Positions 9,334 through 38,311 of a DNA stretch of 41,526 nt are shown here, piece by piece (the first letter of the stretch is position 1; each line of letters starts with the position of its first letter). The DNA lies in NCBI GenBank assembly GCA_005777235.1, contig SXND01000046.1, forward strand, positions 1 through 41,526, read 5' to 3'. A model generated the notes under the pieces. The model was not told the origin of the DNA and made no database searches. It worked only from the letters and a program-made list of their open reading frames with translations. The position numbers and the translations under genes are program-made. This DNA comes from Pseudomonadota bacterium (lineage in GTDB: Bacteria; Tectomicrobia; Entotheonellia; Entotheonellales; Entotheonellaceae).

Positions 9334-9440
9334 GGTGGGCTGTCTCCTCTGGCAAGCCTCAAGTCACATGATGCGTGGTGGATCCTATCACATACGAGCG
9401 GGTTCGCCCAATTTCTCCGCCTGCGGTATGGAGGACGCCC

Positions 9441-10046
9441 ATGCGTATCTGTGTGCTCAGCGATCACCCGGCGAGCCATCGCGCTGTTGTGGCCCTCGGG
9501 CAGCAGGGGCATGACGTCTCCTGGCTCGTGCCGATGGTGTTCTTGCCCACGTTGTCTGTCGAGGCCGAGCGGCTCGCCGTGGCGTCTGACATTCTGCCGG
9601 CGACCTGCCAGCATGTGGTCCCACTCCAGGCGTATCACTATCACGGCGTACACCTGCTGGTCGTCAGTCAGACGCTCTGGCAGCAGCCAGAGTTGCACAC
9701 GCGCCTCTTTACGTTGCTGGGTCTGTTGCATCGCGCCGCGCCGTATCAGGTCTTCCATACCTGGGGGCCTGTGCCGCTGGCCTACCTCACGGTGTATACC
9801 GCCCGCTTTGTCGCCGTGCCGGCGGTGGTGTCATGCGACGCAGCCATGCTGGCGGCGCGGGAGCACCAGCCGTTTCTCTGGGACTGGATGCTGCGCCAGG
9901 CCGCGGCCATGGTCGTTCCCAGCCGTGCCGAGCGCGCGCAGCTTGTGAGCCACAACGCTGGCCTGCCCGTGTCGGTCCTGGACACCACACACCCGGCCCT
10001 GGGGCAGAGGCTGACGGCGCTCTACGCGGGTCTTGGTGTGTGTTAG
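9441..10046 (+). CDS. Short protein resembling the N-terminal half of a GT-B glycosyltransferase
   Basis: A 201-residue protein with a Rossmann-like start (MRICVLSDHPASHRAVVALG) and further strands typical of the acceptor-binding half of GT4 glycosyltransferases (VFHTWGPVPLAYLTVYTARF, VPAVVSCDAAML, AAAMVVPSRAERAQLV). The C-terminal nucleotide-sugar domain is absent; the stop TAG follows naturally at 10044-10046. The ATG at 9441 has GGAGG at good spacing. It may be a non-catalytic partner of the full GT4 enzyme encoded next, or a shortened relic. A CCTGGGAGCG palindrome begins 11 bases after the stop. The gene is divergent from the radical SAM gene. Confidence 0.7.
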   Translation: MRICVLSDHPASHRAVVALGQQGHDVSWLVPMVFLPTLSVEAERLAVASDILPATCQHVVPLQAYHYHGVHLLVVSQTLWQQPELHTRLFTLLGLLHRAAPYQVFHTWGPVPLAYLTVYTARFVAVPAVVSCDAAMLAAREHQPFLWDWMLRQAAAMVVPSRAERAQLVSHNAGLPVSVLDTTHPALGQRLTALYAGLGVC

Positions 10047-10116: not shown

Positions 10117-10151
10117 AGACGGATGCCATCTCGCGTCTAATGGAGGCCCGT

Positions 10152-11279
10152 ATGCACATTGGCCTGCTGACCCCAAGTTTTCCCCCCATGGTCGATGGCG
10201 GGGTGGCCATTGCCACCGGGCGGCTGGCGCAGGCCTTGCTCCGACGTGGGCATACCCTGACAGTGGTGACGAGCCTGCCGCCGGCGCAGCAGAAGGCCGA
10301 GGTCGTCCATGACCGGCTGCTGCTCTCGTCGCAACTCGTGGCCGACCCGGCCCACGCCCCGTCCGCGGTCGCGGCGTTACAGCAGTGGCTGCAGGCCCGG
10401 CATCAGGCCTGCCCGATTGACCTACTCCTGGCGTACTTTCTCTATCCGGCTGGCTACCTGGCCACCATCCTGGGCGAGAGCTTAGGCGTGCCCGTAGTGT
10501 GTAGCTGCCGAGGCAATGACGTGACCAAAGACCTGTTTATCACCCCGGAGCTGATCGCCACCGTGCTGGAGCGCAGTACGCGCCTGATCTTTGTCAGTGC
10601 CTCACTCCTGCACATGGCGGACACGTTGGTGCCGTGCCGCGCCAAAGCCACCGTCGTGGCCAACGCCGTGGATAGCACCGTGTTTACCCCTGCCCTGTCC
10701 CGACCGCTGACCCCAGTGGTCGTGGGCACCAGTGGCCTGATGCGCTGGAAAAAGGGCGTCGATGTGTTTCTGCCGCTCGTGCAGAGGCTGTGCACCACGC
10801 CCAGCGTGCGCATCCTGCTGGCGGGCTATGGGCTTGATGCCGCCATGGAGGCACACATAGCCGATTTCCTGGCAGCCCACGACCTACACCGGCAGGTCGA
10901 GATCACCGGGCCGCTTCTGCATCCCCAGATGGTGCACGCCTTGCAGCGCATGCATCTCTACGTCAGTACCTCGTATCAGGAGGGGATGCCGAACGGCGTA
11001 CTGGAAGCCATGGCCTGTGGCCTACCGGTCGTGGCAACGGACGCGGATGGCACCCCAGAGCTGGTGCAGGATGGGGTGACCGGCTATCTCTGTCCCATGG
11101 GGGATCTCGCCATGCTCGCCACGCGCTGTCGGGCATTAATCGCGCACCCCGCACTGCGCCAGCGTATGGGGCAAGCAGGGCGGCAACGGGTGCAGCAACT
11201 GTTTCGCCCTGAGCAGGAAGCCGCGGCGCTGGAGGCGGTCTTACATCAAGCGTGGGCCGACAGGAGGACCGTATGCTAG
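10152..11279 (+). CDS. GT4-family glycosyltransferase
   Basis: A 375-residue retaining GT-B glycosyltransferase that would move a sugar from a nucleotide donor to an unknown acceptor. The N-terminal domain starts with MHIGLLTPSFPPMVDGGVA, including the glycine-rich acceptor loop. The C-terminal domain has GLMRWKKGVD, the donor-binding element SYQEGMPNGVLEAMACGLPV with the conserved E-x7-E pattern, and TPELVQDGVTGYL. The ATG at 10152 is preferred over the ATG at 10140, because the latter lies inside the ribosome site TGGAGG that serves 10152. The last codons hold AGGAGG and overlap the ATG of the downstream DCC gene, so the two are translationally coupled. Confidence 0.92.
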   Translation: MHIGLLTPSFPPMVDGGVAIATGRLAQALLRRGHTLTVVTSLPPAQQKAEVVHDRLLLSSQLVADPAHAPSAVAALQQWLQARHQACPIDLLLAYFLYPAGYLATILGESLGVPVVCSCRGNDVTKDLFITPELIATVLERSTRLIFVSASLLHMADTLVPCRAKATVVANAVDSTVFTPALSRPLTPVVVGTSGLMRWKKGVDVFLPLVQRLCTTPSVRILLAGYGLDAAMEAHIADFLAAHDLHRQVEITGPLLHPQMVHALQRMHLYVSTSYQEGMPNGVLEAMACGLPVVATDADGTPELVQDGVTGYLCPMGDLAMLATRCRALIAHPALRQRMGQAGRQRVQQLFRPEQEAAALEAVLHQAWADRRTVC

Positions 11280-11659
11280 GCGACGACGCGACCCCTGACG
11301 ATACACGACCACTCATCCTCTGGGATGGTGGGTGAAGCTTTTGACGACGGTGTGTCGCTTGGGTCAAGCGGCAGGATCAGCAGGGACGCCTACGGGCGAT
11401 GCCTTTCCAGGAGGTGCCAACACCCCCGATGACACCAGCATGGTATCAACGTTGTCAGCAGGCGGTGCATGTGCAACTGGCAGATGGGCAGGTGTTACGG
11501 GCGGGACGGGCGTGTATCCATATTCTCGCCGTGTTGGGCTATGGTCGCCTGGCGACCGTGCTGCTTCTGCCCCCATGCCTCTGGGCGGTGGAGGGCGTGT
11601 ATAGCCTGGTCGCCAGACATCGGCCCTTCTTTGCACGCTGGTTTTTTACCCGCGAGTGA
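11273..11659 (+). CDS. DCC-family thiol-disulfide oxidoreductase, probable UxxU selenoprotein
   Basis: A DCC-family (DUF393) protein, thioredoxin-like oxidoreductases named for the DxxCxxC motif near the N-terminus. The frame starts at ATG 11273, placed seven bases after a perfect AGGAGG and overlapping the stop of the upstream gene, and runs to 11659 (128 codons). It contains two in-frame TGA codons, at 11333-11335 (residue 21) and 11342-11344 (residue 24). The local reading is LILWDGG-U-SF-U-RRCVAWVKRQ; in the family both U positions are Cys. The rest is a good family match: RAMPFQEVP, ADGQVLRAGRACIHIL, and the C-terminal VYSLVARHRPFFARWFF. A conventional reading would yield only an 86-residue fragment from 11399 with no redox motif and no start signal. 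Both TGAs fall exactly on the catalytic positions and a SECIS-like hairpin follows, so selenocysteine is the best reading. Two independent nonsense mutations are much less likely. No sel genes are in the window. Confidence 0.8.
11353..11373 (+). promoter_or_regulatory. SECIS-like hairpin downstream of the two TGA codons
   Basis: TGTCGCTTG pairs with CAAGCGGCA in a nine-base-pair stem (one G-U pair) with a GGT triloop at 11362-11364. Bacterial SECIS elements lie inside the coding region just after the UGA, with a small apical loop having G in its first positions, usually 16-37 bases from the UGA. Here the loop starts 17 bases after the second TGA and 26 bases after the first, so both fit. The GGU loop matches the known E. 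coli formate dehydrogenase type. Confidence 0.7.
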
Positions 11660-13829: not shown

Positions 13830-14285
13830 TTAGGCCACAAGCGCACTACGGGGTTCATCATGCGACGTGAGCGTCACGGCGGTATCCTGCGTCGCCGTGG
13901 CGATTGAGCCGTAGAGGGGGCAGCGCCGCTTCCACGTCTCCACGAGGCCCTCGGCATGTTCCGAGGCGACACCCCACATCTCAAAGTGTACGCGAATGGC
14001 ATCGAACACCGTGACATCACCGGCACTCTTGTCAGGATCGCGGTAGGCTTCCACGCTCACATCCATCCACTGCAGAGGCTGCTTATCTTGCTTCGCCAGC
14101 CGTTCGACCATATTGACAGCGCACGCGGACACGCCGGAGAGAAACAGTTCAGCAGCACTGACCGCATCGCCACCAACATCGTCACTGACAAAATGATGCG
14201 TGCGGGCATTACAAATGGCCCGCCCAGGCGTTCCCGTGCTATAACCATGGACTGTATAGGCCAGGGTGAGTGTCGTCGTGCTCAT
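13830..14285 (-). CDS. OsmC/Ohr-family protein
   Basis: A 151-residue cytoplasmic protein of the OsmC/Ohr family, thiol peroxidases that reduce organic hydroperoxides with a two-cysteine mechanism. The two family cysteines are present, one in the long central helix (SGVSACAVNMVERLA) and one in the C-terminal half (WKRRCPLYGSI). The substrate-pocket segment AAELFLSGV is typical. The ATG at 14285 follows a GAGAG ribosome site; an open extension to 14351 looks non-coding. It more resembles the YhfA/OsmC-like branch than Ohr. It stands alone and is leftward. Confidence 0.87.
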   Translation of the reverse strand: MSTTTLTLAYTVHGYSTGTPGRAICNARTHHFVSDDVGGDAVSAAELFLSGVSACAVNMVERLAKQDKQPLQWMDVSVEAYRDPDKSAGDVTVFDAIRVHFEMWGVASEHAEGLVETWKRRCPLYGSIATATQDTAVTLTSHDEPRSALVA

Positions 14286-14759
14286 AGAATGCTCTCCGTA
14301 GCAGTAAGGATCAGGCAGGGATACAGCGCGCTGCTGTACCAACACCCGCACAGGGTACTCAGGACTCTCTCGGCTGTCAACCTACCTGGGCGTACGCTCT
14401 GGTGAGCCCAGGAGCGACCGTTGCAACGTAAGCGCCCCCAGGGGGGATAGGTGCTTACTGCCCCCAGCACCCTACCACCTGCGAGGCAGGTCTACACTAT
14501 AGCCAACCCGAGCAGAGCACACACGAGCCACCCCTGCTTTGTCCGGGACATGCTGGCACAGCATGCGGTGTAACGTCAGAGCATTGTGGCAGGATTGTAC
14601 ATAAGAAAAACCCATAATACGCGGGGCAGACATGGCCCCGTGCGCTGTTGGCTGGCGCGCACGGGGGTGGGGAGACCCATCGCGCCGAAGACCCTGGTCT
14701 TTACACAGGACCCAGGGCTCCTCGCAGTGGCACGAGACACACGGGACGGTCCTGGAGCG
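14286..14759. other. Gene-free stretch
   Basis: The 474 bases between the OsmC-family gene and the end of the DUF1501 gene contain no credible ORF. A C/G-run region near 14430-14470 can fold locally, but no terminator with a T-tract was identified. Confidence 0.4.
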
Positions 14760-16100
14760 TTACCCCATGAAGCCGATATCACTGTGCGGAAACTGCGCCA
14801 AATTCGGGAAGGCCCAGGCCAGCTCCGCGGCTGTGGCACCAAACCACCGGCCCAGGGTGGCGCCGAACTGCGACGTAGCAATCGTGGGGATCCACACCCC
14901 CCGGGTGTTGGCATCGTCCGGGCCACCTAGGGCAAACGTGGGCATCTGGCCATAGATTCCCCCACGCACCGCCCCCCCGAGCACGATCTGGTGGTTCCCC
15001 CAGGCGTGATCACTGCCACTGCCACTCGGTTGCAAGGTGCGACCGAATTCTGACTGCGTGAACGCCGTGACCTTCTGTGCCATCCCGACCTCCTGCATCG
15101 CGGTGTCAAACGCTGCTAACGCCTGGGACAGCTGGGAAAACAAAAACCATTGATTCCAATCCTGCCCACTGTGCAGATCGAAACCATCCAGGGCACAGAA
15201 AAACACCTGGCGCCCTGGCCCCATGGTGGCTCGCAGGCGTATCAGGCGCGCCACTTCCTTGAGCTGGTTGCCGATGGCGGTGCCGGGAAACGCCGTGGCC
15301 AGCGCCGGTACGCTCTGCGTCGATTGCAGAGTATCGGCTAATTGTAAGCCATTGGCAAAAGCCTGGTTGGCCGCTTGCCGCAGGGCCGTACCACCGTGCA
15401 ACGACAGCATCTGCTGCACCGCTTGGCGGCGTGCATCAGCGGCGGCCTGTGGCCAAAAGCTCATGCCGGCCAGGCTCAGGTTCGTCCCCGGCGCGATCAC
15501 GTCGCCCGCCACCTCATAGCCTTGTAGGAACAGCGCGGGCGAGGAAACGGAGACCGCCGCCAGGCTGTCCGCGGTGTCGAAACAATCCAGCAGCCGCCCG
15601 CCCCAGCCGGTGCCGTTGGGCGTGGGCATGCCGGTCTGCGCCTGCACGGTTTGATCGGAGTGCGAAAACAGATTGGTCGGGAGCCCCACGCCCTGGAGCA
15701 CCTCGGCGCGGGTTAAGGGGCGGTGCAGCAGGCCGGTATTCAGCACCACGGCCAGGCGGCCAGCGTTGTAGAGGGGACGCAGCTCGGTCAGCCCGTAATG
15801 CAACGCATACGGGTTGCCGGTGGCGTCGGCGATCGGCGCTAACAACTCGGTCCCCGTTAGGGCCAAATCGCCACGCAGCGTCTGATAGGCGGTGTAGCGG
15901 GCCGTATCGACGGGCACCAGCAGGTTGTTGCCATCGTTGCCACCGGCGAGATAGATGCACACCAGCGCTTTGTAGTCACTGGCTTGGGCGGCGTGGGCCG
16001 GCCGCGTGGGACTCAGGCCAAGGCCCATGAGACCCAGTGTGGCCAGGCGCGCACTGAGTTTGAAGAAGCTACGACGGTCGGAGCAGTGTTGATGAGGCAT
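14760..16100 (-). CDS. DUF1501 family protein with Tat-type signal
   Basis: A 446-residue exported protein of the DUF1501 family (sulfatase/alkaline-phosphatase-like fold, biochemical role uncertain). The N-terminus has a twin-arginine signal, DRRSFFKLSA, followed by a hydrophobic stretch and AHAA cleavage region. Diagnostic segments follow: ICIYLAGGNDGNNLLVPVD-like strand (here starting CIYLAGGNDG), FSHSDQT, FTQSEFGRT and SDHAWGNHQIVLGG, with the Asp and His residues characteristic of the fold. The ATG at 16100 is preferred over 16106, because GAAGGA is at correct distance only from the former. It is 24 bases downstream of the DUF1800 gene; this pair is widely co-encoded and probably acts together outside the cytoplasm. 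Confidence 0.9.
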   Translation of the reverse strand: MPHQHCSDRRSFFKLSARLATLGLMGLGLSPTRPAHAAQASDYKALVCIYLAGGNDGNNLLVPVDTARYTAYQTLRGDLALTGTELLAPIADATGNPYALHYGLTELRPLYNAGRLAVVLNTGLLHRPLTRAEVLQGVGLPTNLFSHSDQTVQAQTGMPTPNGTGWGGRLLDCFDTADSLAAVSVSSPALFLQGYEVAGDVIAPGTNLSLAGMSFWPQAAADARRQAVQQMLSLHGGTALRQAANQAFANGLQLADTLQSTQSVPALATAFPGTAIGNQLKEVARLIRLRATMGPGRQVFFCALDGFDLHSGQDWNQWFLFSQLSQALAAFDTAMQEVGMAQKVTAFTQSEFGRTLQPSGSGSDHAWGNHQIVLGGAVRGGIYGQMPTFALGGPDDANTRGVWIPTIATSQFGATLGRWFGATAAELAWAFPNLAQFPHSDIGFMG

Positions 16101-16124
16101 AGCCATTCCTTCTCACGTCGAAGT

Positions 16125-18065
16125 TTAACGTTGCACCGCGTATTCGCTGGCAATCGCCGCCAAGTAGACGGCCCCCAGGGCGCGTTGCGTCGCATCGGGC
16201 GCGGCAAGGGTCGCTGTCAGGATGATCTGGCGTAACTCGTTGGACATACGCCCCTGCAACAGGGTCTGATTCACCTGCTCCACGAGGGCGGCGGGGTTCC
16301 CAGCCAGGGCCGTAAACGGGCTCAGATTCACACTAAAGGAGGAACCGAACTGTCCACTTAAGATGCCATAGATGAAATTCGCACGCTGGAGCGCCAGCGC
16401 TGGCGTGTAGAGCTGAAACTCGGGCCCGTACAGCGACGGCTGCCCAGGCAAGGCCGCCAGCGGCGAGTAGAAGCTGAACACGGTGGCCGGCGACAGTACG
16501 CGTTGTCCGAGATTGCTGAAGATGTACATGAACATGTTGGGATCGCCAAATTGGGCCCCGAGCGCCCGCCCCAGGCTCAGGATATGCAGCACGGGGTCTT
16601 TGAGATGCCCGTGTGGCCCTGTCGGTGCGGCGGTGGCTTCCACATCGGTCAGGATCGCCATTAACACCGCCCGCAAGTCCCCGCGCACGCCAGCACCGTT
16701 ATTGACGAACACGTCGGCGACGCGCTTGATATAGGCGGCGCTGGGATTGCTACTCACCAGCGAGCTGATGAGCCGGAAGGCGATAAAAGGCGGGACGTTG
16801 GGATGCTGGAACACGTTGTCGATCACCGCCTCCAGATCCTGCTCGACGCTTTGGCCTGCCGGCAGAACCGTGCCATTGAGCAGGGTTTTGGCGCCCGTAT
16901 CATGGTACTGGCTGCGTGGCTCCATGAGGCCGACGAAATACTCCCAGTTTTGCGAGGCGGGGGCTGTGCCTGGCCGGGTCGGATATGTCCAGCCTGTCAG
17001 GGCCCTGGCAAACTCGCGCACTGTGTGCTGGGTGTAGGTGGGAAGCGGGTTCCCCTGGGCATCGGTGCGCCGGCTCCCGTCCTGGTGCAGTTCCCACAGA
17101 CCAATGCTGAACAACTGCAAGAGTTCGCGTGGATAGTTCTCGTTGGGCTCACTGGTAGCGGAGGTTTTCTGGCTGTTGGCCTGGTCAAGATACTTCCCCA
17201 TGCTCGGGCTCATGGACATCTCCTTGAGCAGGGCACGGAAGTTGCCAAAGGCATGCCGTGAGAGCAAGCGGACCCAGGGGATTAACTCGTCGCCGTTCAC
17301 ATTCTTATTGGACGACACCACCAGCGTCTGGCTCAATGCAAACAGCATGCGCTGCCGCAACTGGTCCGCCCCACGGGCCATATTGAGGAAGAGCTGGCTG
17401 CGGACCTGCCCAGCGTTCAGACCATCTGGCATCGGGCTTTCTGGGAGTTGGTATTGCTGTGCCAACCAGACGGACGGGCCTGATTGCTGCACGGCCGCGA
17501 GGTCTGCCGCCGTCGGCCCAAATGTGGCCCGTTCGAGGAAACGTGCCGCACTGCTCACGTCTACCGGCGCAGGGGCAGGCGTCGGCGCAGGGGCAGGCGT
17601 GGGCGCAGGGGTAGGCGTGGGGGCAGGGGCAGGCGTCGGCGTGGGGGCAGGGGTAGGAGGCGGCGTGGCTTGGGCTACCGGCGTGACGACGTACCGTTTG
17701 ACTTCCGTCCAGCCCTGGTACACCACGATGTCGATCTTGGTTTTGCCATCGCAGACCCAGGCATTCCGCGTGACTCCGCTGGCAGTCTCTGTGCTGGCAA
17801 TATACAGCCGGTGCAGGCTAGGGTTCTCCAGCGTTGCCGTCACGGGAACCGAGCAGTTGGCCGTCTTGGGAATCGTATACTGCGTGACATCTGGCGCAAA
17901 GACTGGGCTAAGACCAGCCACTACGAGGCTGGAGACGGGACCAGTCGCCGCAGTAGTCACCGCAGGAGTAGAGCCCAGCGTCCCCAGTAGCAGCAGACTC
18001 GGCCAGAGGGCAGCGCGCCGACGGTGGCGGCACGACGGGCGGCTCATCATGAGGGATTCGTGCAT
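16125..18065 (-). CDS. DUF1800 family protein with cadherin-like domain and proline-rich linker
   Basis: A 646-residue secreted protein. Order: signal peptide (about 15-40, basic then hydrophobic, ending TTAAT), a cadherin-like beta-sandwich domain (about 44-130, typical SSLVVAGLSPVFAPDVTQYT start), a low-complexity PTPAP linker (about 134-170) encoded by short tandem repeats near 17575-17655, and the DUF1800 domain (about 172-646). The DUF1800 hallmarks are AARFLERATFGPT, QLRQRMLFALSQ, NENYPRELLQLFSIG, VREFARALTGW and FLxSPLA-like FYSPLAALPG. The function of DUF1800 is unknown. It is the first gene of a two-gene operon with DUF1501. AAAGG precedes the ATG at a somewhat long distance. Confidence 0.9.
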   Translation of the reverse strand: MHESLMMSRPSCRHRRRAALWPSLLLLGTLGSTPAVTTAATGPVSSLVVAGLSPVFAPDVTQYTIPKTANCSVPVTATLENPSLHRLYIASTETASGVTRNAWVCDGKTKIDIVVYQGWTEVKRYVVTPVAQATPPPTPAPTPTPAPAPTPTPAPTPAPAPTPAPAPVDVSSAARFLERATFGPTAADLAAVQQSGPSVWLAQQYQLPESPMPDGLNAGQVRSQLFLNMARGADQLRQRMLFALSQTLVVSSNKNVNGDELIPWVRLLSRHAFGNFRALLKEMSMSPSMGKYLDQANSQKTSATSEPNENYPRELLQLFSIGLWELHQDGSRRTDAQGNPLPTYTQHTVREFARALTGWTYPTRPGTAPASQNWEYFVGLMEPRSQYHDTGAKTLLNGTVLPAGQSVEQDLEAVIDNVFQHPNVPPFIAFRLISSLVSSNPSAAYIKRVADVFVNNGAGVRGDLRAVLMAILTDVEATAAPTGPHGHLKDPVLHILSLGRALGAQFGDPNMFMYIFSNLGQRVLSPATVFSFYSPLAALPGQPSLYGPEFQLYTPALALQRANFIYGILSGQFGSSFSVNLSPFTALAGNPAALVEQVNQTLLQGRMSNELRQIILTATLAAPDATQRALGAVYLAAIASEYAVQR

Positions 18066-28974: not shown

Positions 28975-29110
28975 GTGCCGTACAAGATGATCGGTCCGCT
29001 ACTTTGACATACTCCCCATGGCTCAAGCCAGGGGATTCTGGGATCAACCATCCATGCAGGCCGAAGCCTGACTGACAAGATGTCCCCCATGAGAAGATGC
29101 CCCTTCTCGG
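28975..29110 (-). ncRNA. Predicted TnpB guide RNA (omega/reRNA) region
   Basis: In TnpB elements the guide RNA overlaps the 3' end of tnpB and runs through the right end into flanking DNA, which supplies the guide. Here the right-end hairpin (29014-29034) lies ten bases after the tnpB stop on the leftward strand. The guide would be the next 16-20 bases, beginning between about 29002 and 28995 in permease sequence. The exact element border is not established. This is prediction by analogy. Confidence 0.4.
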
Positions 29111-30204
29111 AAAATATTGACTGCGGCGTTGTGGTCGCGCTGATGGGTTATCCCACAATCAGGGCATGTCCATACGCGATCTCGCAGTGTGATCGCCTGA
29201 TGTATGCATCCGCATGCCGAGCACAGTTTCGTTGACGGGAACCACGTGCCGATGTGCTGAACAACCGTGCCTGTCTTGCTGGCGACATAGTGCAACCTCC
29301 CAACAAACGTCGCAAAGCCCAGGTCAGAGACCTTGCGTCCCCACAGCGCTTTCATGCCAGACAGATGCAGCGTCTCCAGGGCAATACAGTCATACTGGGC
29401 GCAGAGTGTGTACGCCAACTCCCAGTGGAAAGCCTGTCGTTGATTCGCCACGCGCTTATGGACACGGGCAAGGTTCCTCAGGGCTTGCTTGAGATTGTGG
29501 GATCCTCTCTTCTTGCTGGCAAGCTGACGGTTTGCCTTGGCGAGCGCCTTCAAATGATGTTTGAGCGGCTGAGGTGCGTGATATTCGTTGCGATCACTCC
29601 CTGTCAGGTACGTGGTCAACCCAAAGTCAAAGCCCGCGCTTTTACCTGTCATGACTCGGTCAATGGGTGGTTGGTCATCAAGGATACACGAGAAGTACAC
29701 GTACAGGTCCCCAAGAGGGTCACGCTTGATGGTCACCGTTTTGATGGTGCCGTCGATCTCGCGAGACTTGGCGTACTTATAGATCGTGGAACCAATCTTC
29801 AGGCGGTTCCCGTCGAGCAGCTTCCAGCCCGTCTGCGACAACGTAAAGGACTTAGCATTACGGACCTTACGAAAGGATGGTGGTCCCACGCGGCGCGAGA
29901 TCTTTCCGGCTTTGCGCGCCTTGACGTTGGCAAAAAATGCCTGATAGCCTTGGTCAATACGTGCAGCAATATTCTGGATGGCTTGCGCGCCAAGTTGTTT
30001 CCACCAGGCGTACTTGGGCAACTTCTTCGACTTGGCGAGGTGAGCTTGAAGGGCATAAAGCGACAGCGACTTCTTGTACAAGCGATAGTATCTGCGGTGC
30101 AGCGCAATGCAGTGGTTATGTATTGCACCGCCGCCGCCTATCTGTCGATGCAATCGCTTGTTGCGCTTACTGCGATACAGTTTGTACGAGAACGTCTTCC
30201 GCAT
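29044..30204 (-). CDS. tnpB: TnpB RNA-guided nuclease of an IS200/IS605-type element
   Basis: A 386-residue OrfB/TnpB protein, the RNA-guided DNA nuclease family ancestral to Cas12. The N-terminal part is basic and helical (MRKTFSYKLYRSKRN). The RuvC-like active site is complete: Asp in GFDFGL (about 191), Glu in IALETLHL (about 276) and Asp in HQRDHNAAVNIF (about 356). The zinc finger is CSACG followed by CPDCG. The reading frame is intact, so the protein may be active. No transposase tnpA is present, so movement would need one in trans. The start ATG at 30204 lies three bases after the stop of a small upstream ORF. Confidence 0.93.
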   Translation of the reverse strand: MRKTFSYKLYRSKRNKRLHRQIGGGGAIHNHCIALHRRYYRLYKKSLSLYALQAHLAKSKKLPKYAWWKQLGAQAIQNIAARIDQGYQAFFANVKARKAGKISRRVGPPSFRKVRNAKSFTLSQTGWKLLDGNRLKIGSTIYKYAKSREIDGTIKTVTIKRDPLGDLYVYFSCILDDQPPIDRVMTGKSAGFDFGLTTYLTGSDRNEYHAPQPLKHHLKALAKANRQLASKKRGSHNLKQALRNLARVHKRVANQRQAFHWELAYTLCAQYDCIALETLHLSGMKALWGRKVSDLGFATFVGRLHYVASKTGTVVQHIGTWFPSTKLCSACGCIHQAITLRDRVWTCPDCGITHQRDHNAAVNIFREGASSHGGHLVSQASACMDG

Positions 30205-32078: not shown

Positions 32079-34865
32079 CTACGGCACCAGGCCACTCGGG
32101 CCAGGCGCACGATAAAAGAACGACCGCATAATGGCCAGGTCATCCAGCGTCACGACCCCGTCGCCGTCGAGATCCGCATGGGAGTCTGTCGTATTCATGG
32201 CGCGGCGCAACAGCCCAAGATCGAGGAAATTTACCGTGCCATCATTGTTCAGATCAGGATCACAGGCGTTGCCAAACCCGTCCCCGTCGGTATCACGCTG
32301 ATCGGTATTCGCCACGTTGAGACAGTTGTCACAGGTGTCAGCCACTCCATCCCCATCCGTGTCGACGTCACCGGCCTCCAGACAGGCCGTGTCGCCCCCC
32401 AGGAAGGCGCAGGTCCGTTGCGCCAGGCACACTTCATCGCCGGTGGTCCCTTGCATGCTGAGCCCGACCCCCCCGGCGCCCTGCACGGCGCTCAAGAGCG
32501 TAGCAAAATCCGTCTCACCCGCCCCAGGGGTGGGAGAGGGGCCATTATCAAACGAGATGTCGATGAGCGCGGAGAGCGCTCCTGCTCCAAACCCGCCCGC
32601 GGCATACCCGCCAGTGGCCCCTGGCGGAAACCCCGCGGGTGCAGAGCCTCCTGAGACCACGTTGACCAAGGCTCCCACCACATCCGCCACCCCGTGGACA
32701 TGCGGTTTACCCGGCCCCGGTAGGTGGAACACCCGCGGCGTGGTGAAGAGGATCACGGCAGTCGGACCAACCACCGCGCCAGCGCCATTTGCCCCTTGCC
32801 CGGCGGGCACGCCAACGCCGCAGCCGCCCACAGCGGGTACCAGGGCCTGCCCGGTCAGGGACGTGACGATGGCGTCAATCTGGCTCTCTGGTGTATCCCC
32901 GCCCTGACGTGGCCCCACCACCGGCAGGAAACCTGGAATTTGTGCTGCGCTCACAAACGGCGTGATGAGTTGATACGGCACATCCCCAGCGGCACCGTGG
33001 GGCGCACACGGGTAATCGTCCAGCCGGGCGATGGCGAAGCGATCTGGCCCCGGAATGGCATCCAGGCGTGGCGTGAGAAAGTTAATAATCCCATTGTAGA
33101 AGGCATTGACCCCTGCGGCGCTCCCCGTAGTATCTACCAGGTAGATGTAGTTGCGTGCTGCGGGACCGCACGGCACGGCAACGTTCATCTCAACGGCCAG
33201 CAAAGCTTTGTTGACTTCCGCCGCATCGGCCGCGGTAAAAATGTTGCCTGGCCCTGCCAGCGGTAAGCCGGTGCGCGGATCTCTGGGGGTGCTGTTGATC
33301 AACTGGGTGGCCGCCAGGTTGAAACAGGCAAACGCCATCTGGAAATCCGAGGTCGGCGTCAGACAGGTGGTGAGCGCCCGATACCACACCGCCCCGGCTT
33401 TGATGGGGCCAATGCCGGCGACATTTTGCTCGTTAAAATTCTTCCCGTCCGTCATGATGGCGAAGGCATGGTTCGGCACGCTACTGCCGCTGTGCACCCC
33501 ACCGTTATCCTGCGGGATACCGCACACGTACTGCGGGCTGGTGACCTTCTCCGGATGATTGCGGCACGACGGGAACCACATATCGCGCGCGTGACCAGCG
33601 GGGGTGTCCTCAAAGATCAACCAGCGTCGGCCATCAGGGAACCCGGCGGCCGGAGAGCACGCCGTGCGTAACTGGTTGCCGACATCGTTGCCTGGTCCAA
33701 CATAGTTCGCCGGCACCGGCCAGTTAGGCGGCCCCCCTGGAGGGCCGGCAAAGGCCGCATTGCCGTTGAATAAATCGATAAGTTCGCCGAAGACATCGGA
33801 AAACGATTCATTCAGTTGCCCTGCTTGGTTTTGGTAGATGAGGCCAGCGCTAAACTGCGTGACCCCATGCGTCAGCTCATGGCCCATGAAGTCATCGGTC
33901 ACCAGATTCGGAAAGAACACCACGCGGTTGAGCGGCGGGCCCGTCCAGAAGCCATCCTGGCGGACCGTGGAGTGCACGGTAATCGCCAGTGCTCCACCCG
34001 CGGCATTGACGCCATCCCGCCCGAAACCACGCGCGTAATAGCCGTAGACATCCCCGGCGTAGTCATAGGCCTTATCCACGTCCGGAATGCCGGTAGGCCC
34101 GGCGCCTTCCCAGCGCGCCGGGACTCCGAACAACGCGGGAGTCACATTGGCGTTGTTGATGCGCCGGTTGAGTGCCTTGTGGACCATATCCCAGCGATCT
34201 AGGATGGCCCCGGTATGGGCATCGATGAAGAAGCCGTCGCGGCCCCCGGTACTGGGGGCGCTGAGTACGAGGTAATAGGCCAGGTGTGGCCCAATGGCGG
34301 GGTCGCCATACCACCCTGGATCGACGATGACCAACTGGGTCTGCTCAACGCGGGGCGAGGCCGTGGCCAGCGCCTTGGTCGCAATCTGTGTAGCCGCCGC
34401 GGCATCGAGTGTTGGGCGCGTTTCGAAGTCGGCTGGGATGTCGTGGAAGAAGCCATTGGCCGCGCTGAAGCGACCCTGGTGATCGTGATGGACTTTGATC
34501 ATCCCCCCGAAGACCGGCACCTGCTTAAACACCTGCTCGTAGGTGGTGTGCTGATGGCCGATGTCGTCCGTCACAGTGGGCCTGGCCTGGAGTTCTTGCG
34601 CGGCATCGGTGACACCGAACAGCGCGCCATACTGCCGCAGAATCCCCAGTGGGGTGCTATCTGCAATGGCGCGCAACGCGGCGCTGGCGCCTGGGGTGTC
34701 TTTGGGGCTGATCAAGATGGCGCGCCCCGTGGTCGGCGACACCTCTACCTGCAGGTCCGCCAGGTCACTACGCGGTTGAGCGCCGGCCATCCCTGCGACG
34801 GCCACCCAGGCCAGGGCTGTCCCTACCACACGCCTGGTGCATGGTGTGAGGTGTAGAGTCGGCAT
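32079..34865 (-). CDS. Thermolysin-like (M4) metallopeptidase with VWA-like region, type-3 repeats and dockerin
   Basis: A 928-residue secreted protease. Order: signal peptide (about 10-29, GMAGAQ); FTP/PepSY propeptide ([13 protein letters not shown] to about 170); M4 catalytic domain with zinc site GHELTHGV (about 326), the downstream Glu in [11 protein letters not shown] and the His in [16 protein letters not shown]; a von Willebrand A-like region starting [11 protein letters not shown] (about 570-770); calcium-binding thrombospondin type-3 repeats ([29 protein letters not shown]); and a type I dockerin with two F-hand repeats ([19 protein letters not shown] and [19 protein letters not shown]). 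AGGAGAG precedes the ATG. The frame is intact. The dockerin suggests non-covalent attachment to a cohesin, and the next gene encodes a cohesin-like surface protein. Confidence 0.92.
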
Positions 34866-37212: not shown

Positions 37213-37731
37213 CTACTGCCCCACTGCCGGCACTTCCGCCGCGTACGACACCACCACTGCACGATTGCTGGCCTCGGGACGTACGTGCACCGGCACCTGC
37301 CAGCGGACGTCCTGGATCACGCACACGCCGGTATTGTCCTCACGGCAGTAGTAGAAGGTCACCGCCAGGTGCAGCGTGCCCTGATGCGTCCCTGCGGCAG
37401 TCTGGAAGGGGATGACCAGCGGTAGAGGTGGGGCAATGGTCTCGCCGGAGCGGTCGGCCTCTGCTATCGTGAGGCCCGCGCCGCGGCTCTGCACGGTGTA
37501 GAGCAGCGGCGCCCGGGGGTTCAGGTGATAGCCGAGGGGAAAGTGCACGCGCACGTGCAGTGCGCCCGCGGTGCCTGCCTGGATAGTCTGCGGCGCCAAG
37601 GAGATGACGTCATCCCCCACACTGCTGCTCTGCGCCAGCGCCGTACCGCCTGACAGGAGCAGCAAGAGGAGGCAGCCCAGGGCACGCAGCCCCTGGAGGG
37701 CTGCGCCGGCAGGAGCGAGGATACGCCACAT
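37213..37731 (-). CDS. Periplasmic DsbD-alpha-like domain protein
   Basis: A 172-residue exported protein with a signal peptide (about 1-32, ending ALAQ). The mature part has the pattern of the N-terminal domain of DsbD and related thiol-reductase partners: FPLGYHLNPRAPLLYTVQ, a middle strand pair, and FYYCREDNTGVCVIQDVRWQVPV, where the two cysteines nine residues apart occupy the place of the DsbD alpha cysteines. Family members receive electrons from thioredoxin-like proteins in the periplasm. The membrane and C-terminal domains of DsbD are absent. The ATG at 37731 has AAAGG upstream. It sits between the cupin gene and the aspartyl-protease lipoprotein gene, all leftward. Confidence 0.72.
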   Translation of the reverse strand: MWRILAPAGAALQGLRALGCLLLLLLSGGTALAQSSSVGDDVISLAPQTIQAGTAGALHVRVHFPLGYHLNPRAPLLYTVQSRGAGLTIAEADRSGETIAPPLPLVIPFQTAAGTHQGTLHLAVTFYYCREDNTGVCVIQDVRWQVPVHVRPEASNRAVVVSYAAEVPAVGQ

Positions 37732-37843
37732 ATGACACGCCTTTGCAGAGATATTGCGGGAGAGGGCTCGGGTCAAAGCTGCCTGCGGCACCAGCCACGG
37801 CAGCCGCCCCACGGCGGTGAGTCGCAGGGCGGCGCGATCCACC

Positions 37844-38311
37844 CTATTTCTTGCGCGGATCATCCGTCGGGTTCACATAGGTGATGCCCTGGGGATCCAT
37901 CCCGTGCAGCTGCAGCACGGTGTCCTCGGTAAACCAGGCGTAATGTATCATGCCTTTGGCGACGTACGAATACCCCCCAGACTTGATCTGCGTCCCCTTC
38001 TGCTCGTCGAGCTTGTCCCCAGTGCCAATGTTGAAGCTCCCCGAGAGCACGGTGACGTTCTCGTCATTGGGATGCGAGTGGGCGGCGATCTTGAAGCCGG
38101 CGGGAACCTTCAAGCGCACGATGTACAGTCCTTCTTTGGTGGGATCGCCTTTGACGACCGCCACTTGCGCCCCCTGCGCGTAGGCGGCCGGGGCCGACCA
38201 TGTCAGGTTTTCTGATTGTACCGTGATGTGATGATCCTCGGCAGCGATAGCCCAGAGCGGGAGTGCGGCGGCGACCAACCAGCTGGCGACTACGAATCGC
38301 ATGCTCATGCT
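37844..38311 (-). CDS. Exported cupin domain protein
   Basis: A 155-residue protein with a signal peptide (about 1-24, ending AIAA) and a single cupin barrel. The metal-binding cupin motif 1 is visible in KIAAHSHPNDENVTVLSGSF (His, His and Glu). Motif 2 is around GMIHYAWFTEDTVLQLHG. The family binds metals and small organic molecules; the activity is unknown. GAGGAGG sits six bases before the ATG at 38311, which decides the start. First gene of a leftward group of three exported proteins (cupin, DsbD-alpha-like, aspartyl-protease lipoprotein). Confidence 0.88.
   Translation of the reverse strand, partial: SMSMRFVVASWLVAAALPLWAIAAEDHHITVQSENLTWSAPAAYAQGAQVAVVKGDPTKEGLYIVRLKVPAGFKIAAHSHPNDENVTVLSGSFNIGTGDKLDEQKGTQIKSGGYSYVAKGMIHYAWFTEDTVLQLHGMDPQGITYVNPTDDPRKK

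Follow-up and report, generated by a model that had tools for sequence, protein, structure and literature searches.

DCC1-like thiol-disulfide oxidoreductases (PF04134, also DUF393 or YuxK) have a thioredoxin-like fold and carry their two active-site cysteines in a DxxCxxC motif. Selenocysteine (Sec, U) in a U-x-x-U spacing has been described in other families, namely Prx-like proteins (PF00578), a metal-binding or putative mercuric reductase family (NF041115) and the FmdB family (TIGR02605) (PMC13188914). According to the same source, the bacterial selenocysteine insertion sequence (SECIS) is modeled as a hairpin with a loop of 3-9 nt, a stem of 4-16 bp, a G in the first two loop positions, a spacing of 16-37 nt and an energy of at most -7.5 kcal/mol (PMC13188914). 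Table 1 of that 2026 inventory, which covers 119 prokaryotic selenoprotein families or subfamilies, has no entry for PF04134, DCC or DUF393 (PMC13188914), and a term search of the main texts of a 2022 review (PMC9312934) and of the deep-Sep paper (PMC12013277) returned neither DCC nor DUF393. A literature search, with supplements and most subscription journals outside its scope, found no paper linking DCC, DUF393, DCC1-like, YuxK or PF04134 to selenocysteine or selenoproteins. The stretch of DNA analyzed here, called the window (41,526 nt, contig SXND01000046.1 of assembly GCA_005777235.1, family Entotheonellaceae), carries a DCC1-like gene in which both active-site cysteine codons are UGA, and we put the probability that both are decoded as Sec, assisted by a single predicted SECIS hairpin, at about 0.93.

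The gene is a single DCC1-like (PF04134) frame at 11273-11659 on the forward strand, with two internal TGA codons and 128 residues ahead of its stop. The start codon, the AGGAGG upstream of it, the internal TGA codons at 11333 and 11342 and the terminal TGA at 11657-11659 are all as described in the first-pass annotation, which had been made from the letters of the window; the hairpin is an element that it had not named, and one by which its selenoprotein reading gains. The features of the locus are as follows.

11262-11267, + strand: ribosome-binding site AGGAGG, read in the sequence, with a 5 nt spacer to the ATG at 11273
11273-11659, + strand: gene of the DCC1-like family (PF04134) whose frame contains two UGA codons, from sequence and profile match
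11333-11335, + strand: first UGA, at the first Cys of DxxCxxC, predicted Sec21, from the frame and homologue alignment
11342-11344, + strand: second UGA, at the second Cys of DxxCxxC, predicted Sec24, from the frame and homologue alignment
11353-11373, + strand: hairpin predicted as SECIS, with a stem of 9 bp and the loop GGU (11362-11364), -11.1 kcal/mol
11399-11659, + strand: frame of an 86-aa stub (protein cluster P0002), matched in the protein collection
11657-11659, + strand: terminal UGA, taken as a normal stop, the best hairpin that follows (+0.6 kcal/mol) not qualifying
10140-11279, + strand: GT4 glycosyltransferase upstream, a neighbor only, its stop overlapping the DCC start by 7 nt

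Translating TGA as a residue (Cys) gives the frame a PF04134 score of 59.4 bits, where the cut-off is 27.8. The match takes in profile positions 1-110 of 113, spans both TGA codons and upholds the earlier assignment to the DCC family with TGA at both cysteines of the motif. When UGA was left as found, a search of the genome gave 39.3 bits and reported two TGA inside the match, and this was the only PF04134 match in the assembly at E 0.001. The motif reads WDGG-U-SF-U-RRC; its aspartate and spacing are kept, and it fits DxxCxxC only if both UGA codons are read as Sec. PF04134 was the sole family reported for the protein at E 0.001, the AhpC/TSA domain PF00578 not being seen, and no match was returned by NCBIfam (up to E 0.001), by a sequence search of solved structures (up to E 1) or by Rfam over 1 kb around the gene (up to E 10).

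Within the family, the closest homologue lies in a genome of another genus (Candidatus Tectomicrobia bacterium KatS3mg131, BPKO01000014.1), is 56% identical and has CGFC at the motif. This relationship points to a Tectomicrobia-like bacterium as the source of the window. A first scan of genome contigs with the window protein alone gave no match, as did the viral contigs scanned. Eight loci came from a scan of GTDB genomes that used a small alignment as query, and were read with TGA as U. Five have CxxC; the other three, in Ca. Brocadia sp. WS118, Chloroflexi bin_187 and Pyrinomonadaceae MGR_bin354, have UxxU where the window gene has it. Searches through the phyla of these three, using a 23-row alignment and scoring up to 11 candidates per genome, covered 392 genomes for Brocadia (152 with a match at E 1e-8, a subset of rows being listed), 396 for Pyrinomonadaceae (26 at E 1e-14) and 400 for Chloroflexi (71 at E 1e-14). 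They added genes with TGA at both motif positions in G166, G1237, G1005, G1304, G1190, G1117 and G987, and with TGA at one position in G1162, G995, G1225, G1239, G1123 and two genes of G254, these last being very similar CxxU genes (L108, L109) that both lie near contig ends. In the Pyrinomonadaceae phylum, TGA was confined to the starting genome among the 26 matches listed.

When every locus fetched had been searched with the profile and duplicates removed, 102 distinct DCC genes were left (11 UxxU, 2 UxxC, 5 CxxU and 84 CxxC); these counts are not natural frequencies, because the choice of loci enriches for TGA. TGA occurs in 18 of them and in every one at the motif positions. In eight of these 18 frames no further TGA follows the motif before a TAA or TAG stop, and in the other ten the next TGA lies at the usual C-terminal end of the family. 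Two C-terminal TGA codons, that of L154 (G935) and one of the two in L159 (G1225), were taken as stops, and a G064 match with one TGA was dropped, being 47 residues long and at a locus with no DCC hit at E 1e-8 in the profile pass. Across the alignment of DCC homologues, Cys or TGA is found at exactly these two positions, and the same double TGA recurs in six more genes of the subfamily, which bears out the earlier view that two TGA codons at these sites are beyond chance.

For the tree, 67 of the 102 rows (profile score at least 60) were used and 35 dropped, including L108, and the motif cysteines were masked, leaving 129 columns, too few to settle many of the forks. The window falls in a group of 18 rows, 7 UU and 11 CC (support 99/93), the seven being the window gene, the three UxxU genes from the GTDB scan and those of G166, G1237 and G1005. 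Within it, the window pairs with the CxxC gene of the Tectomicrobia genome named above (support 97/89). A second group with TGA, of 14 rows, has 4 UU, 4 CU, 2 UC and 4 CC (support 91/90, not starred). Outside the clade of the window there are 4 UxxU, 2 UxxC and 5 CxxU genes in all. The presence or absence of Sec requires at least eight changes on the tree, in which gain and loss are not told apart.

The predicted hairpin lies 26 nt behind the first UGA and 17 nt behind the second, both inside the 16-37 nt range. Applying the published constraints to bulge-free hairpins only, a qualifying hairpin was found in all 18 TGA genes from both codons, against 9 of 84 CxxC genes from the first codon and 9 of 84 from the second (Fisher p 1e-13, with relatedness not corrected for, so that the value overstates the evidence); the chance level is indicated by the 101 of 1098 TGA triplets of the window that pass the same test. 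More telling than the Fisher value are the shared spacing and the covariation of the stem. In all seven UxxU genes of the window's clade a GGU loop stands exactly 17 nt behind the second UGA, and four of eight stem pairs (the upper eight) have changed on both sides. Paired cells make up 92.9% of the hairpin alignment, compared with 16-43% in slid structures, and among 500 shuffles the covariation score was reached in 1, the share of paired cells in 8 and the further pair types in 126. Folding energy alone was not distinct from shuffles. In the UxxC and CxxU genes the single UGA lies 27 and 17 nt before the hairpin, respectively, which suggests that one element is able to serve either position, and in the window gene one hairpin may well serve both UGA codons within a single mRNA.

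The Tectomicrobia CxxC gene paired with the window (L011:1498-1875, G001) has kept a qualifying hairpin at the same spacing, with a 9 bp stem, loop GGUCG and -13.2 kcal/mol, and is the one row to do so among the 11 CxxC rows of the clade. This hairpin is perhaps a relic of a Sec-containing ancestor, left by a change from Sec to Cys. Another CxxC row of the clade, L055, passes the hairpin test from the first codon only. Of the nine CxxC genes that pass, none belongs to the second group, whose four CxxC rows are L139, L140, L148 and L154.

These data bear on the explanation that survives best beside double decoding, which is that only one UGA is decoded as Sec with useful yield while the other mostly terminates or is misread, making the active product rare or a single-Sec form. 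Sec insertion in bacteria is known to compete with termination, a loss that a second UGA 9 nt further on would compound, and single-Sec forms do occur outside the window's clade. Within that clade, however, all seven TGA genes read have both TGA codons and none has a single one, and since a UGA that serves no purpose should tend to disappear, this argues against the use of one only; the hairpin is also within range of both codons. We consider single decoding unlikely, and favor the insertion of Sec at both positions.

The rest of the assembly was searched for the machinery of Sec insertion, as the first-pass annotation had suggested, and most of it was found. A tRNA-Sec scores 77.6 bits and is also called as tRNA-SeC by ARAGORN, with anticodon TCA (UCA), and SelB is over its cut-off at 377.7 bits. 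SelA is represented by a 3' piece (the last 165 positions) that is cut by a contig start and lies ahead of SelB, scoring 169.2 bits, under the cut-off of 267.9; in the relatives G001, G002, G003 and G004 it is over the cut-off. SelD (357.4 bits) itself carries one in-frame TGA, with a hairpin of loop UGGUGU behind it. The assembly is a fragmented metagenome-assembled genome (6.03 Mb, 284 contigs, 89.7% complete, 6.72% contamination), and tetranucleotide correlations with the window are 0.942 for the tRNA-Sec contig, 0.954 for the SelD locus and 0.896 for the SelB locus; agreement of this kind is weak proof that contigs belong together, because loci from other genomes also reach 0.83-0.92 (L053 0.917, L163 0.887). 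A tRNA-Sec over the Rfam cut-off is present in 15 of the 17 genomes with a TGA-bearing DCC gene, the other two, G1225 and G1239, having none at E 1e-9. It is also present in 17 of 21 and 2 of 4 genomes in two sets taken for their CxxC genes, so that tRNA-Sec is a necessary condition that is mostly in place but does not discriminate. SelB is over its cut-off in G117 and G121 and not in G119 (Chloroflexi bin_187). The tRNA-Sec of bin_187 (L072:1501-1626) is 126 nt long; its variable arm is enlarged and its anticodon loop intact. ARAGORN missed it, but it is over the Rfam cut-off, and no SelB over the cut-off was found in that genome.

Which residue is inserted at UGA does not follow from the open frame alone, and UGA might be read as some other amino acid, through a reassigned code or near-cognate readthrough. 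Eight of 21 checked open reading frames of the window end in TGA, so UGA is a normal stop in this organism and reassignment of the code was rejected. The internal UGA codons of 18 genes stand at redox cysteines, with SECIS-type hairpins and, for the most part, tRNA-Sec in the same genomes, and insertion of another residue is accordingly very improbable compared with Sec.

The protein collection probably contains such genes in shortened form. An 86-residue stub starting at 11399 had been foreseen by the first-pass annotation, and is present as P0002 (86 aa, three member sequences, two contigs, the longest of 13577 bases), with one residue different from the window. Among 46 clusters similar to the window protein, six start at residue 43 (the Met at 11399), these being its own stub and five others at 69-74% identity, a value that covers only the better conserved part of the protein. 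Nine more start at residues 27-53, and may be contig edges; none of the 46 is a full-length cluster at 69% identity or above. In a profile search, a type that ranks full-length proteins first, DxxCxxC is present in all of the best 120 of 959 clusters, and the subfamily is thus rich in CxxC forms. With a UxxU gene of the second group (L161:4032-4430) as query, 394 clusters were found at E 1e-10, and 118 of the best 120 (P0155-P0274) begin three residues past its second UGA, at residue 20, with M in 117 cases and L in one. Some clusters near L161 are named after Candidatus Dormibacteraeota or Dormibacteraceae records, as DCC proteins, and "selenoprotein" appears in no name shown among the best 120. 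These stubs are likely to be a large set of truncated selenoprotein annotations, cut by gene finders, and their starting points suggest that a UGA lies just upstream.

The same gene calls, P0002 and the 118 clusters near L161, are what speaks for a real protein that lacks the redox motif and begins at 11399, or in relatives at the corresponding Met. The strong ribosome-binding site at 11262 stands before the long start, however, the similarity to PF04134 continues upstream of both UGA codons and full-length CxxC homologues exist, all of which make a genuine short protein highly unlikely. A decaying pseudogene, or TGA codons due to sequencing error, might be suspected in a fragmented assembly, but this explanation is disfavored by conservation to the point of being scarcely credible, as the same two codons are TGA in other phyla, the remaining frame is intact and P0002, from other contigs, points to the same frame closed upstream, making a base error of one assembly unlikely.

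With Sec at both positions, the product would have a U-x-x-U motif. Decoding would be carried out by tRNA-Sec and SelB, aided by the one hairpin directly 3' of both UGA codons, and would yield a small thioredoxin-like protein with a predicted redox function. The first Sec may attack a disulfide or a peroxide-type substrate and the second resolve the intermediate, as in a CxxC oxidoreductase but with two selenols, and the resulting Se-Se bond would be strongly reducing and resistant to irreversible oxidation. Diselenides are reported as not easily reduced by glutathione (PMC10134987), so this form would need a stronger reductant. The predicted structure is of medium confidence (pLDDT 74.5), and its weak matches to glutaredoxin-like, GST and thioredoxin chains agree with the fold of the DCC family.

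Taken more widely, DCC enzymes of at least four phyla probably form a widespread but hidden selenoprotein family with a diselenide active site, both Sec being placed under a single SECIS hairpin. The window's clade would switch between CxxC and UxxU as a unit, the second clade has CC, UU, UC and CU together, and most of the second clade would be present in databases only as stubs.

A coupling of the gene to a glycosyltransferase operon, also put forward by the first-pass annotation, was abandoned: the DCC start does overlap the stop of the GT4 gene, but among the 20 neighbor frames scanned at nine relatives (only part of their neighbors) none is a glycosyltransferase. The scanned neighbors vary from locus to locus (aminotransferase, histidine kinases, PfkB kinase, AcrB, heavy-metal ATPase, amidase and others), and since they differ, the context gives no substrate. 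Just before the complete glycosyltransferase is a short frame (9375-10046, +) whose matches to the GT4 N-terminus are weak and under the cut-offs. Another candidate for UGA decoding, the in-frame TGA at 37875 (-) that precedes the frame 37213-37875, has a hairpin. Reading through it yields no Pfam match at E 1e-4, however, and what follows the TGA resembles an ordinary signal peptide start; it was taken as a coincidence. Nine other frames of the window passed the same loose filter. Other genes on the reverse strand of the window encode an OsmC-like protein (13830-14351), adjoining DUF1501 and DUF1800 proteins (14760-18065), an IS605 OrfB or Cas12f1-like TNB (TnpB-type) protein (29044-30204) and a thermolysin-type peptidase with a dockerin-like stretch (32079-34865). 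For PF02566, the family of the OsmC-like protein, the inventory reports Sec members elsewhere (PMC13188914).

If confirmed, these findings would add to the selenoproteome a family absent from the current inventory, and explain why gene callers miss such genes. They would also mean that selenium use is undercounted in uncultured Chloroflexota, Planctomycetota, Acidobacteriota and Tectomicrobia-like bacteria and, going by the stubs, in Dormibacterota. The series of UxxU, UxxC, CxxU and CxxC forms in one small domain makes it possible to test what advantage a diselenide has compared with a selenosulfide or a disulfide, and whether one bacterial SECIS drives two Sec insertions three codons apart.

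Compared with the systems described so far, the window protein shares with the DCC1-like oxidoreductases a domain that matches almost the entire profile, and the position of DxxCxxC. It differs from them in that their full-length members among the best 120 of 959 clusters have Cys at both positions, whereas the window gene has UGA at both and a SECIS-type hairpin behind them. With the UxxU selenoproteins of the Prx-like, NF041115 and FmdB families it has the U-x-x-U spacing in common, but the domains are different. The hairpin agrees with the bacterial SECIS model in its 3-nt loop starting with G, its 9 bp stem, its distances of 26 and 17 nt and its energy under -7.5 kcal/mol, and is comparable to the SelD hairpin of the same assembly; it departs from the model in that one hairpin is in range of two UGA codons 9 nt apart.
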